A stretch of 64,000 nucleotides of DNA. Origin: Sphingobacterium sp. BN32 (lineage in GTDB: Bacteria > Bacteroidota > Bacteroidia > Sphingobacteriales > Sphingobacteriaceae). The position numbers and the translations under genes are program-made. Under the pieces are notes generated by a model. That model saw only the letters and a list, made by a program, of their open reading frames with translations. It did no database searches and was not told the origin of the DNA. Shown in pieces: positions 20,933 to 49,662 of this stretch (position 1 is the stretch's first letter; each line of letters starts with the position of its first letter). The stretch covers positions 2,356,001 through 2,420,000 of the forward strand of contig NZ_CP129963.1 of NCBI RefSeq assembly GCF_030503615.1, written 5' to 3'.

Positions 20933-22435
20933 ATGGAAAACAACTCGAGAAGAGAATTTATCAAAAATGCCAGTATGTTAACCGGATTTACTATCGTATC
21001 AAATACGGTCCTAGGCAAGAAATTTGGACATATTGCGCCCAGCGATAAACTGAATATTGCAGGGATTGGCGTCGGTGGAATCGGGAGAAGAAACCTTAAC
21101 AATATGAAAACCGAGAACATCGTAGCATTATGCGATGTTGACTGGAAATATGCCTCAAAAACCTTTAACGACTACCCGAAAGCGCAGCGTTTTAAGGATT
21201 GGCGCAAGATGTTTGATGAAATTGGAAAGAGCATTGACGCGGTATGCGTAGCCACGCCAGATCATACCCACGCCGGGGTAACAGCGCATGCGATTACCCT
21301 CGGCAAGCATACTTATACTCAGAAACCATTAACGCATAATGTGTATGAATCCAGGCTGTTGACGAAATTGGCAAAACAATACGGCGTAGCCACACAGATG
21401 GGAAATCAAGGTAACTCCTTCGATTGGTGCCGTGAGATTGCTGAATGGATTCAATCGGATGCGATTGGAGAGGTGTATGAAGTGCATTGTTGGACCAACC
21501 GTCCGATATGGCCTCAAGGATTAATGAAACCAAAAGAGGGCATGCCAATTCCTAAGGATTTGGATTGGAATCTATTCTTAGGACCTGCTGAGTATAGAGA
21601 ATATAATTCAGTCTACACACCTTGGAACTGGAGAGGTTGGTATGACTTCGGAACAGGTGCACTCGGCGATATGGCTTGTCACATTATGGACCCAATTTAC
21701 TGGGCATTGAACCTGAAGTACCCGACCAAAGTAAACGGAAGCTCAACCTTAAGTAATCTTTACTCGCCACCTCATGCAGAGATTGTGAAATACACATTCC
21801 CGGCACGTCCAAAAGCGGGCAAGGTGAAGATGCCGGAAGTCGACGTCTACTGGTATGACGGTGGATTGCTGCCGGACAGACCAAAAGAGCTGGCTCCAGG
21901 CATGATGATGGGCGATCCTGATGGGGGTATCATCTTCGTCGGTAAAAAAGGAAAGATCATGACCGGTTGTTACGGCATGAACGCTACACTCCTACCTGTG
22001 GAAAATATGAAGGATTTCAAAAAACCAAGCCCATGGATTCCTCGTGTAAAAGGCGGAAATGGCGATATCTGGAAAACCGATGCGCATGAGCAAGATTGGA
22101 TCAGAGCAGCAAAAGAATCGAAGGATAACCGAACTGAAACCAGTTCTAACTTCCAATTCTCGGGTCCATTTAATGAGATGGTCGTGATGGGCGTACTAGC
22201 TGTAAGGCTCCAAGCACTAAACCGAGAGCTGCTTTGGGATGGTGAAAACATGAGATTCACCAATATCAATCCTAACGATGAAATTAAAGTCGTTTCAGTT
22301 GATGAATTCAACGTAATTGACGGACACCCAAGGTTTAACCGTCAGTCAATTACCCTAAATGCGGCCCAAGCGGCTCAGGACTGGATCAATAAGCCATACA
22401 AAAACGGCTTCTCACTCCCACCAATGCCAAAATAG
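20933..22435 (+). CDS. Gfo/Idh/MocA oxidoreductase with Tat signal
   Basis: A 500-residue protein with a twin-arginine export signal (NSRREFIKNASMLTGFTI). A Rossmann domain follows (LNIAGIGVGGIGRRNLNNM near 37, ALCDVDW), then the family motifs VATPDHTHAGVTAHAI and GKHTYTQKPLTHNVYE with the catalytic-type Lys. The C-terminal part is typical of Bacteroidota periplasmic members. It likely oxidises a sugar or sugar derivative using a tightly bound NAD cofactor. It is last in the sigma-FecR-DUF1080 run and is followed by a terminator. Confidence 0.92.
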   Translation: MENNSRREFIKNASMLTGFTIVSNTVLGKKFGHIAPSDKLNIAGIGVGGIGRRNLNNMKTENIVALCDVDWKYASKTFNDYPKAQRFKDWRKMFDEIGKSIDAVCVATPDHTHAGVTAHAITLGKHTYTQKPLTHNVYESRLLTKLAKQYGVATQMGNQGNSFDWCREIAEWIQSDAIGEVYEVHCWTNRPIWPQGLMKPKEGMPIPKDLDWNLFLGPAEYREYNSVYTPWNWRGWYDFGTGALGDMACHIMDPIYWALNLKYPTKVNGSSTLSNLYSPPHAEIVKYTFPARPKAGKVKMPEVDVYWYDGGLLPDRPKELAPGMMMGDPDGGIIFVGKKGKIMTGCYGMNATLLPVENMKDFKKPSPWIPRVKGGNGDIWKTDAHEQDWIRAAKESKDNRTETSSNFQFSGPFNEMVVMGVLAVRLQALNRELLWDGENMRFTNINPNDEIKVVSVDEFNVIDGHPRFNRQSITLNAAQAAQDWINKPYKNGFSLPPMPK

Positions 22436-22477: not shown

Positions 22478-22512
22478 AGAAGGCTGTCCAAGCGGGCAGC
22501 CTTCTTAACTTT
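22478..22512 (+). terminator. Terminator of the sigma/FecR/oxidoreductase unit
   Basis: AGAAGGCTG (22478-22486) and CAGCCTTCT (22497-22505) form a perfect 9-bp stem with a 10-nt loop, followed by TAACTTT. It lies about 40 bp after the oxidoreductase stop. Confidence 0.75.
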
Positions 22513-22630
22513 GAACACAGATTGAAATTCATCTTAGCATTCTTCTTTTGCTAAATTTGCCTATCTTCAAAGGACATCGATACATGCGTCTATGTAAAGA
22601 GGAAAGTTATTCGAGACTTCTTCGACACAG

Positions 22631-22726
22631 AACCCTTTCAAAGCCCTTTCAAACCCAATACAAACCCAATGCAGAACCCTTTTGAAAGGGGAATGAAAGG
22701 GGTTTAAATTGGGTTATATTGGGTTG
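22631..22726. repeat. Phased CCC/GGG repeat element, locus 1
   Basis: Between convergent genes. CCC tracts begin at 22633, 22644, 22654, 22665 and 22677. GGG tracts then begin at 22688, 22699, 22711 and 22721. Steps are 10-12 bp and average 11. Flanks are TTTC or AAT around the CCC tracts and GAAA or ATT around the GGG tracts, so units are AACCCAAT or CCCTTTC and their complements. The centre, CCCTTTTGAAAGGG (22677-22690), is nearly palindromic. A second element of the same design is at 49492-49605. Between the terminator and this element (22513-22630) nothing else is seen. Confidence 0.85.
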
Positions 22727-22762
22727 ATATTGCTTGCATGTCAGACTATGCTCATTTCCTCC

Positions 22763-24154
22763 CTACTTAGCCATTCGTACTATTTTGGGTGTAAAACTAC
22801 CCAAGACAGAAACCAACTCCTCCTGAAGACGCATCACTTTCTGTATATCCTTATAAGCCATAGGGGCCTCATCAACTGATCCTCCTAATAGCTCCACGCC
22901 CTTAGATTCCAGATCTGCTAACATCTCACTGCGGCGGATCGTATCCTTACATTCGCCGCGCGACTTGATACGTCCGGCCCCATGGGATGCAGAATTTATG
23001 CTCAGGGGATTTCCTTTCCCTTCTACAATATAACCTTGAGCCGTCATCGAACCTGGGATAATCCCTAAAACGCCCTCAGACGCCGGAGTTGCTCCCTTAC
23101 GATGTACGATACATTCTTTTCCATCGACAAACTCTTTCCAAGCGAAATTATGGTGATTTTCGATGGTCAGCATCGCTCTCTTTCCCAAAGCTTTTGCCAA
23201 TCGACGATGTATATCATCATGACAAGCCTTGGCATAATCGCCTGCCAAGTTCATAGCGGTCCAATACTCCTGTCCATCGTGTGTATCCAGATCTAACCAA
23301 GCCAAATGCTGTACTTGCTTTGGAAGTGGACACTGCTTCTGCGCCAAATAGGTATAATGCTTTGCAATGTTTGCGCCTAAGCCGCGAGAACCAGAGTGTG
23401 AGAGAACCGCTAGATAGGATCCCTTGCTAAGTTTCCAGTCTGCTCGATCTTCATACAAGTCGACAATCCCGAATTCCACAAAATGGTTTCCTCCGCCAGA
23501 AGATCCCAGCTGTTTATAGGCTTTGTCCTTTAAAGATTTTAACAGCGGTATTTCCTGAAATGCAGCATGCGAAAAGATCTCGTGATCTGCTCTTGACTTA
23601 TGCTTTTCATAGAGTCCAAAAGCCGTGTTATCTTTCAAGATATTCCGAAGTTGGAATTCGCGTCCCTTCAAATAGCTTGCAGGAAGATCGAATATCGACA
23701 GACTCATTCTACAGCCAATATCGACGCCGACGCCATAAGGAATAACTGCGTTATCGGTCGCTAGGACTCCCCCAATTGGCAATCCATAACCTGCATGTGC
23801 ATCTGGCATCAGTGCCCCCTGCACGGCGACAGGTAATTTCAGGGAATCGTAAAGTTGACGCTTTGCCAATTCGTCGATCTCGTTTTCTCCGAATATCTCA
23901 AAAGGAACACGTTGTGTCCGCAACTGATGCATTCTTACCTCTACCGGTTTGATCATCCCTTCGGCAACCTTTCCCCAGGTACCATGTCCCATGTATTTGT
24001 CTGGAAACAACAAGACTTGCTTGGCTTCCTGTAATATGGTTTCTTTTTTATCGCGCTTGCGATATCGCGATATTTGCCCTAGAGCAATATTTATCGCATT
24101 ATTTTGCGGAAAACCCAGTTTGATTAGGTCTTTCCCGGAAAGTTTATTTCCCAT
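22763..24154 (-). CDS. rtcB: RNA-splicing ligase RtcB
   Basis: RtcB joins 2',3'-cyclic phosphate (or 3'-phosphate) and 5'-OH RNA ends using GTP and Mn. The 463-residue protein shows MPDAHAGYGLPIGGVLA, YGVGVDIGCRMSLS, SSGGGNHFVEFG, SHSGSRGLGANIAKHY, ENHHNFAWKE and HGAGRIKSR, where the His accepts GMP; it holds the metal-binding Cys, Asp and His set. ATG 24154 is chosen because MGNKLSGKDLIKLGFP is a typical start; the upstream in-frame extension is not. The promoter at 24469-24500 would give a leader of about 300 nt. Confidence 0.96.
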   Translation of the reverse strand: MGNKLSGKDLIKLGFPQNNAINIALGQISRYRKRDKKETILQEAKQVLLFPDKYMGHGTWGKVAEGMIKPVEVRMHQLRTQRVPFEIFGENEIDELAKRQLYDSLKLPVAVQGALMPDAHAGYGLPIGGVLATDNAVIPYGVGVDIGCRMSLSIFDLPASYLKGREFQLRNILKDNTAFGLYEKHKSRADHEIFSHAAFQEIPLLKSLKDKAYKQLGSSGGGNHFVEFGIVDLYEDRADWKLSKGSYLAVLSHSGSRGLGANIAKHYTYLAQKQCPLPKQVQHLAWLDLDTHDGQEYWTAMNLAGDYAKACHDDIHRRLAKALGKRAMLTIENHHNFAWKEFVDGKECIVHRKGATPASEGVLGIIPGSMTAQGYIVEGKGNPLSINSASHGAGRIKSRGECKDTIRRSEMLADLESKGVELLGGSVDEAPMAYKDIQKVMRLQEELVSVLGSFTPKIVRMAK

Positions 24155-24468
24155 TGTAATAAAAATTGAATTGAATATTCCGGTTGATCCTGTAGATTGA
24201 AAGATCAAACAAAGACCATCCGATTTAAAATGACGGGCTTTTTAAATAAAACTTTCTTAGTTCCGTTACGAAGGAGGATACCTAGTAAGTCCTTAATTTT
24301 CATCAAGGAACACTTAAGTGCTACGTAAAATAAGAATAATAAGATCTTCTTAAGAAAAAAGCACGAAGCAAGCCACAGCAAATCCATTTGCTGCAAACGC
24401 TCGAGAAGTTGGGGTACTTACAAACATATCTTCGTCTTTTTTAAAGGGTTAAAAATATTTATCGGGGT
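24155..24468 (-). other. Long leader region upstream of rtcB
   Basis: About 310 bp between the strong minus-strand promoter and the rtcB start. It contains a 25-codon open frame directly after the predicted transcript start (24350-24427). Inside that frame is a hairpin with 7-bp arms CAGCAAA and TTTGCTG around TGGA. A minus-strand run of six T at 24355-24360 follows. A second open frame of 32 codons (24205-24303) is Lys/Leu-rich and unconvincing. Whether all of the region is cotranscribed with rtcB cannot be seen. Confidence 0.5.
24350..24427 (-). CDS. Possible 25-residue leader or small peptide upstream of rtcB
   Basis: ATG at 24427 lies about 35 nt after the predicted start of transcription, preceded by the purine-rich AAAAAAGACGAAGAT. 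The peptide begins MFVSTPTSRAFAANG, continues with the hydrophobic FAVACFVLF and ends at TAA. It has one Arg, no acidic residues and a hydrophobic half, so it could be membrane-associated or a regulatory leader. The coding part overlaps a perfect 7-bp hairpin. I do not recognise a family with certainty. Confidence 0.4.
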   Translation of the reverse strand: MFVSTPTSRAFAANGFAVACFVLFS

Positions 24469-49426: not shown

Positions 49427-49464
49427 AAAAATCCTGAAGCTCCCCGCTTCAGGATTTTTTTTAT
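49427..49464 (+). terminator. Terminator of the pigment operon
   Basis: AAAAATCCTGAAGC and GCTTCAGGATTTTTTTT form a perfect stem of more than 12 bp with loop TCCCC and an eight-T tail. It lies about 125 bp after the ligase stop. Confidence 0.93.
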
Positions 49465-49491
49465 TCCCGTTCGACTCACTCGTTTTCCACT

Positions 49492-49605
49492 CCCATTCCA
49501 CTCCCAATTCACAGCCCTTTCCAAGCGCTTATGATTGGGTTAAACATTGGGTTTGTATTGGGTTTATATTGGGTTTCAATTGGGTTTGAATTGGGTTTAA
49601 AAGGG
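49492..49605. repeat. Phased CCC/GGG repeat element, locus 2
   Basis: CCC tracts begin at 49492, 49503 and 49515. The palindrome AAGCGCTT (49523-49530) is at the centre. GGG tracts begin at 49537, 49549, 49560, 49571, 49582, 49593 and 49603. Steps are 10-12 bp, mean 11, and the phase continues across the centre (22 bp from last CCC to first GGG). The right half is a series of ATTGGGTTT units. It lies between the pigment operon terminator and the convergent NUDIX gene. It shares design with the element at 22631-22726. Confidence 0.85.
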
Positions 49606-49662
49606 AACTGACCTGTACCAGATCTATTCCAGTCCTCACTTAAACCTCAGGAAAACATAATG

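Follow-up and report, generated by a model that had tools for sequence, protein, structure and literature searches.

What is the row of nine short C and G tracts that lies between two convergent genes in the chromosome of Sphingobacterium sp. BN32? The row belongs to the 64,000-nucleotide stretch analysed here (the window, whose numbering is used below), where a sequence-only reading had noticed, at 22631-22726, tracts that follow one another on a lattice of about 11 bp, with a switch from CCC to GGG that keeps the phase. Both features proved real. The chain, CCCCCGGGG, occupies 22633-22723 with centre spacings of 11, 10, 11, 12, 11.5, 11, 11.5 and 10 bp, i.e. within 10-12 bp throughout. Against its 9 tracts, dinucleotide shuffling of the whole window, repeated 60 times, gave longest chains of 3 (39 shuffles), 4 (18 shuffles) or 5 tracts (3 shuffles). 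The convergent setting was also correctly described: the gene for a Gfo/Idh/MocA family oxidoreductase (20933-22435, + strand) ends at 22435, and that for an RtcB family protein (22763-24208, - strand) has its end at 22763. The array had been placed beyond a terminator as well, which is supported only in part: a GC hairpin is visible on inspection at about 22480-22507, but a terminator scan found none.

When the window segment was used in a BLAST search of its own genome, 49 matches on both strands, corresponding to about 40 places, were obtained. A first set of 41 copies was made of 39 fetched stretches and of the two copies present in the window. Once oriented by their arms, all 41 aligned without a gap over 105 columns, which gives good support to the proposed helical phasing. 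The sequence model derived from them gave 159 matches in the genome, 150 of which were reduced to 132 separate places (18 were dropped as overlaps); with 4 further places from other scans, the 4.37-Mb genome contains at least 136 copies, mostly intergenic. The true number may be higher, since the model scored no more than 150 of the 2013 first-look candidates.

The plan of the element is an imperfect dyad core with a long and a short arm, built of rigid 11-bp units in which the GG/CC phase is fixed. Read on the element strand, a short left arm of CCC units precedes the core (about AGCCCTTTC-NGAGCGGTTATGA) and a long right arm of GGG units (TATTGGGTTTG, AAAGGGCTTT and relatives); the step is of 11 bp throughout and of 12 bp across the dyad. 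The long arm extends exactly four units past the core in 65 of 81 copies, and the short arm mostly one to three. The first copy of the window (22615-22745, - strand; offsets -61 to +69 from the dyad in the family alignment, set by eye) has its dyad between 22683 and 22684. Its long arm and adjoining core half (22631-22679, - strand), with 11-bp units such as AAAGCCCTTTC and AAACCCAATAC, bear five CCC tracts on the + strand, i.e. GGG on the element strand; the other core half and the short arm (22684-22726, - strand) bear four GGG tracts on the + strand. The second copy (49460-49610, + strand; dyad between 49521 and 49522) contains a chain of 7 GGG at 49537-49605 and has an unusually long right arm, of 7 units past the core.

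A column profile was drawn from 98 of 100 copies (41 plus 57; two weak copies from G078, another member of the genus, were left out). The columns carry strong information between about -58 and +67 relative to the dyad, and a weaker 11-bp pattern, outside the GGG/CCC lattice, extends to about -83 and +99; the length of 130 bp is therefore a cut made by eye. The GC content varies with a period of 11 bp on both sides of the dyad, with an amplitude of 0.22 in the stronger, right arm versus 0.09 in the other. Runs resembling TAGTAGTTAGTAGTTAG and TAGATATTAGACATTAG directly flank many elements (L015, L038, L045 and others).

The distribution of the copies along the chromosome is far from random. The closest two of the 132 places are 10.9 kb apart. 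In 10,000 random placements the minimum never exceeded 2.4 kb, and the gap variation was never as low as the observed one (CV of 0.73 versus a random mean of 0.99). For the 136 places the median gap is 25.1 kb; no gap is below 10 kb, where 36 were expected, and 42 are of 20-25 kb, where 10.5 were expected. When the places were drawn from 1,500 candidate positions chosen at random, as a crude substitute for intergenic regions, every one of 5,000 runs had 19 or more gaps below 10 kb. The 132 places are divided between the two strands (64 and 68). Adjacent copies were on the same strand in 49 of 131 cases, and in 60 of 127 among the matches listed for G078, which is perhaps a sign of alternation.

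Position lists, from which opposite-strand duplicates were removed by hand, were also made for two relatives. G078 has at least 128 places; among the matches listed, one gap is below 10 kb against 31.7 expected, and the median is 26.3 kb. Its overall gap variation, again among the matches listed, is not low (CV of 1.10 versus 0.99 for random), owing to several large gaps, one of them of 404 kb; that 404-kb interval, at 41-445 kb of G078:C1, has no copy among the matches listed. G012 has at least 29 places, none closer than 26 kb among the matches listed, with a median gap of 87 kb. Among the large gaps of the BN32 genome, one of which spans 163 kb (3.99-4.15 Mb), three copy-poor ones of 117-147 kb were read. 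Three extra copies turned up in two of them, which leaves copy-free stretches of about 89, 96 and 146 kb. The last (G000:C1:2821200-2967800, L276-L283) is probably in large part a conjugative island, since the 9 proteins tested include a TraG-type (TraG/DUF3875) conjugation protein, a topoisomerase, a DNA polymerase III alpha subunit and TonB-dependent receptors; a large N6-methylase-like protein and a multicopper oxidase are also encoded there. The 89-kb stretch (9 proteins tested, with an alanyl-tRNA synthetase and a type I restriction system) is not clearly of foreign origin.

Are the positions themselves conserved? The model gave 150 matches in G078 and 108 in G079, a third species. Against 59 sampled G078 copies, 28 of 81 copies from BN32 gave clean pairs, where about 37 would be expected if all sites were common to both (81 x 59/128, a rough estimate). 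These pairs were picked by hand: matches resting on short flanking repeats were left out, and of L300 and L317, which both matched the G078 locus L238, only L300 was kept. Over the nine GG/CC columns of the lattice, 6 of 252 positions were changed (2.4%), against 215 of 1344 (16%) for the core columns off the lattice; before hand selection the values were 2.1% and, for the other core columns, 22%. The low figure for the lattice is partly built in, the nine columns having been chosen as conserved in the family. Identity was 82% over the 120-bp element, 72% in outside blocks of 100 bp (which begin about 90 bp from the element and may include coding sequence) and 59% after shuffling. Some pairs are unequal in arm length, as in L011/L226, where the difference is a single 11-bp unit. 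In L027/L210 the two outer arms have changed together, with an exact mutual match in G078 (by eye). With at least 136 places in its own genome, sites common to G078 and the shuffling results given above, the array is neither a pattern at chance level nor one limited to two unconserved sites. It belongs to a conserved, evenly spaced family of DNA elements.

Dispersed, mostly intergenic, palindromic and in many copies, such a family could be an old non-autonomous mobile repeat (MITE or REP-like), restrained in its spread by target immunity or purged of close copies, and today of little or no function; the existence of a second family in the same style (see below) goes in the same direction. Yet there are 28 ortholog pairs against about 37 expected if all sites were common, flank identity at the G078 ortholog sites is roughly 83-94%, and both the lattice and the length of the arms seem to have stayed under constraint well after insertion. 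Two BN32 sites were probed for absence in G078: that of L298 holds the element, and that of L020 holds only a core remnant, beside an IS110-family gene. Present mobility is disfavoured, given the positions shared with G078 and the absence of close copies, and we regard the mobile origin as quite unlikely. REP and BIME sequences are likewise short, palindromic, intergenic and numerous, and BIMEs are reported as bound and cleaved by gyrase (PMC6379681). The present element differs from them in being unclustered (10.9 kb at the minimum, no gap below 10 kb among 136), in its 11-bp units, and in the positions and lattice common to species.

The IS110-family element of G078 (L351-L362) is present in 12 copies, nine in the same strand and three in reverse; one of them, L352, abuts a core remnant of the phased element. 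The idea that it targets the phased element was abandoned, because another repeat, CCAGGAAAGGAAGG, adjoins the right junction in 8 of the 9 same-strand copies. The latter is a distinct dispersed repeat that occurs near phased elements too.

In G079 the architecture is kept with different units, the common ones being GGGTGAGAAAG and the core about CCCTTTGCAAAGGGG. Two of 20 copies sit at the same junction as a BN32 copy by both flanks (L338/L019 and L343/L041), and a third, L334, has a one-flank match, to two BN32 loci (L317 and L300); the remainder of the 20 had no adjacent match in the 81 BN32 loci. Since about half a coincidence is expected by estimate, the apparent sharing of positions with G079 is suggestive only.

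The change of units between species bears on the type of protein that may bind. One candidate is a clade-specific, sequence-specific chromosome-organising protein (nucleoid, anchoring or loop-boundary) that would contact one 11-bp unit per helical turn and delimit segments of roughly 25 kb. The rigid 11-bp register, the recognisable unit consensus within a species, the rarity of close copies in two genomes and the restriction to one clade among the genomes searched are in its favour. However, units and core differ between G000, the BN32 genome, and G079 while the lattice is constant, and a protein that reads bases would need to track these changes; we consider this solution rather unlikely. 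The matS and parS types of macrodomain and segregation sites are also repeated chromosome-organising sites; the element differs from them by a far longer phased array instead of one short consensus, and by its chromosome-wide distribution.

The clade restriction comes from several searches. A four-tract pattern was found in 47 of 93 genomes of the genus, with at least 19 matches (overlaps counted) in nine, BN32 included; a five-tract pattern was found in 23 of 295 genomes of the class, the matches listed besides those of BN32 being largely poly-G or local tandem repeats. For both, the reversed-pattern control was uninformative, as the pattern reads the same backwards. The model matched 10 of 59 relatives (BN32 included), with many matches only in BN32 and G012 and one or two weak ones in the others. 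An exact 28-mer from the element had no match in a set of genome contigs that may omit the genome of the window and those near it. A looser 18-mer matched at least 104 stretches, mostly, among the matches listed, from Planctomycetota and with no named close relative; it was also found in five viral contigs, and the one inspected was an isolated match. In MAG contigs of Phycisphaerae (Planctomycetota; L109, L075, L089, L092 and L144), runs of TTGGGTTTG at 10-11 bp steps resemble the element unit strikingly, though the phylum is unrelated. In the literature, surveyed mostly in overview, we found no report of this element family and no regular, sequence-encoded set of topological sites.

Several other members of the genus carry a second type of element (L244-L263, L052, L062, L063, L066), with GGGGGTTAACA units and reversed polarity, the long GGG arm coming before the core. 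A model built from 13 of 20 candidate loci found it at 14-16 places each in G026, G107 and G016, and at none in five other single-contig genomes. In G107, 15 of 16 places switch strand only twice around the chromosome, being on + as far as 1.56 Mb, on - between 2.77 and 5.73 Mb and again on + at 6.0 Mb, as if the strands were oriented to replication. In L058 and L063, from different species, copies of this type are followed downstream by gene starts that resemble each other (MAIQKDGPNGAFIGKVGS-like). L246 (G095) and L255 (G106) show a third type, which shares the 11-bp lattice but has GGGTTTAGTTA-like units.

Does the element act as DNA or as RNA? A simple ORF caller found no ORF of at least 80 aa across the dyad for 93 of 98 elements; the other 5 have one, the longest being of 302 aa (L209). 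By the same caller the neighbours are convergent in 34 cases, co-directional in 50 and divergent in 14, while all adjacent gene pairs of the same loci are distributed as 81, 254 and 68. Of the 98 elements, 34 thus have convergent neighbours, compared with about 47 of 305 other adjacent pairs, a crude comparison given the ORF caller. In the 50 co-directional contexts, the element is oriented with transcription 22 times and against it 28 times.

A hairpin, either a torsion-buffering cruciform extruded from supercoiled DNA or an RNA stem-loop, would account for the near-perfect palindromes seen in some copies. As RNA, L041 reaches -63.9 kcal/mol (z of -9.6), and the window copy has folding z values of about -3.0 and -3.2 on the two strands. 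The arms of a copy also match each other better than swapped arms do, at 0.751 versus 0.691 (sd 0.007) for the inner stem and 0.566 versus 0.535 for the next unit, but the outermost unit is at the level of the swapped control (0.434 versus 0.426). Arm matching can also come from template switching at quasi-palindromes. With a long arm of mostly four units facing a short arm of one to three, conserved outer units are left without partner, orientation does not follow transcription, and Rfam gave no match to the element in 7 copy-bearing loci outside the window, only a tRNA elsewhere in L016. Covariation in the 41 copies gave 558 Watson-Crick cells versus 522 expected, 23 G-T cells (23.7 expected) and 21 A-C cells (18.5 expected); in a count over 1764 cells, G-T was not clearly above A-C (63 and 50). 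The RNA hairpin is disfavoured by the transcription-independent orientation and by the lack of a clear G-T excess over A-C, and hairpins of either kind appear improbable as the basis of the family, even with the arm matching in their favour. Action as DNA is favoured over action as RNA because orientation is independent of transcription and because the long arm exceeds the length that can pair.

An architectural function of the family is likely. Among the natures first proposed for the array, which also included a mobile repeat and an RNA hairpin, a structural repeat or a binding array for a nucleoid protein fits best. We are reasonably confident that the element is an architectural site for DNA binding or wrapping, and it is probably wrapped by protein: wrapping is favoured over recognition by a base-reading protein because the unit sequence turns over and the GC phase stays, and a change of units between species on a fixed 11-bp lattice is what indirect readout leads one to expect. 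Each element would be a double-stranded site wrapped around a dyad-symmetric protein, which would read the phased GC/AT bendability more than the exact sequence, and the long arm would form the main wrapped segment.

Among known wrapping proteins, gyrase is preferred because approximate length, symmetry, period and the dominance of one arm fit. The gyrase motif of E. coli is described as 130 bp long, with a central 36 bp (-16 to 19) and two 47-bp arms that have a GC periodicity of 10.75 bp (PMC6379681), and in the strong gyrase site of phage Mu (SGS) the right arm is reported as essential and the left as dispensable (PMC10052514). Like strong gyrase sites, the element has about 130 bp around a central part, a GC period of about one helical turn in the arms, and one dominant arm. 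It differs from them by its many evenly spaced copies in one chromosome, its exact 11-bp register, the CCC-to-GGG strand switch, the sequence dyad and the weak signal beyond 130 bp. The excess of convergent neighbours, the orientation independent of transcription, the spacing and the conservation of the lattice between orthologs also count for gyrase.

The comparison with Mu gave mixed results. The right arm of the SGS is at the 97th-98th percentile of Mu for 10.5-11 bp GC periodicity, and the left arm at the 57th-84th. Its GC peaks are about 2 bp (right) and 1 bp (left) off those of the element, for which chance is about one in ten by rough estimate. When the GC template of the element was run over Mu, the SGS was not singled out (rank 2,392 to 10,630 of 36,588, i.e. 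top 7-29%), the best z within 3 bp being 0.55-1.51 over eight scales and both orientations; this speaks against gyrase. So do the change from CCC to GGG tracts between the two sides and the real unit consensus, which go beyond what GC content needs; the matching of arms within a copy, not needed by a wrapping site; and the observation of dense sets in no more than some members of a single genus, when gyrase itself is universal. The extension of the phased signal past the 130-bp motif weakens the case further. We therefore view gyrase as the leading candidate for the wrapping protein, with the elements as putative distributed strong gyrase sites, but at a probability that stays short of an even chance. 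If so, gyrase acting at distributed strong sites would keep supercoiling even along the chromosome, with the sites more frequent in the gaps between convergent genes, in which positive supercoils accumulate.

A wider proposal, which we advance tentatively and with more doubt than belief, is that the family may be a ruler built into the chromosome: a clade-specific set of well over 100 wrapping sites that selection would maintain at a density near one per 25 kb. Each site would be a phased platform of at least 130 bp that defines or serves one supercoiling domain, and its units could turn over as long as the 11-bp lattice stays. The phased signal past 130 bp and the less even overall spacing in G078 weaken this proposal. 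It has long been asked whether the topological domains of bacteria are tied to evenly placed sites defined by sequence; in E. coli the domain boundaries look mostly stochastic or driven by transcription. With at least 136 recognisable, regular and conserved sites, the present genome would make this question directly testable.
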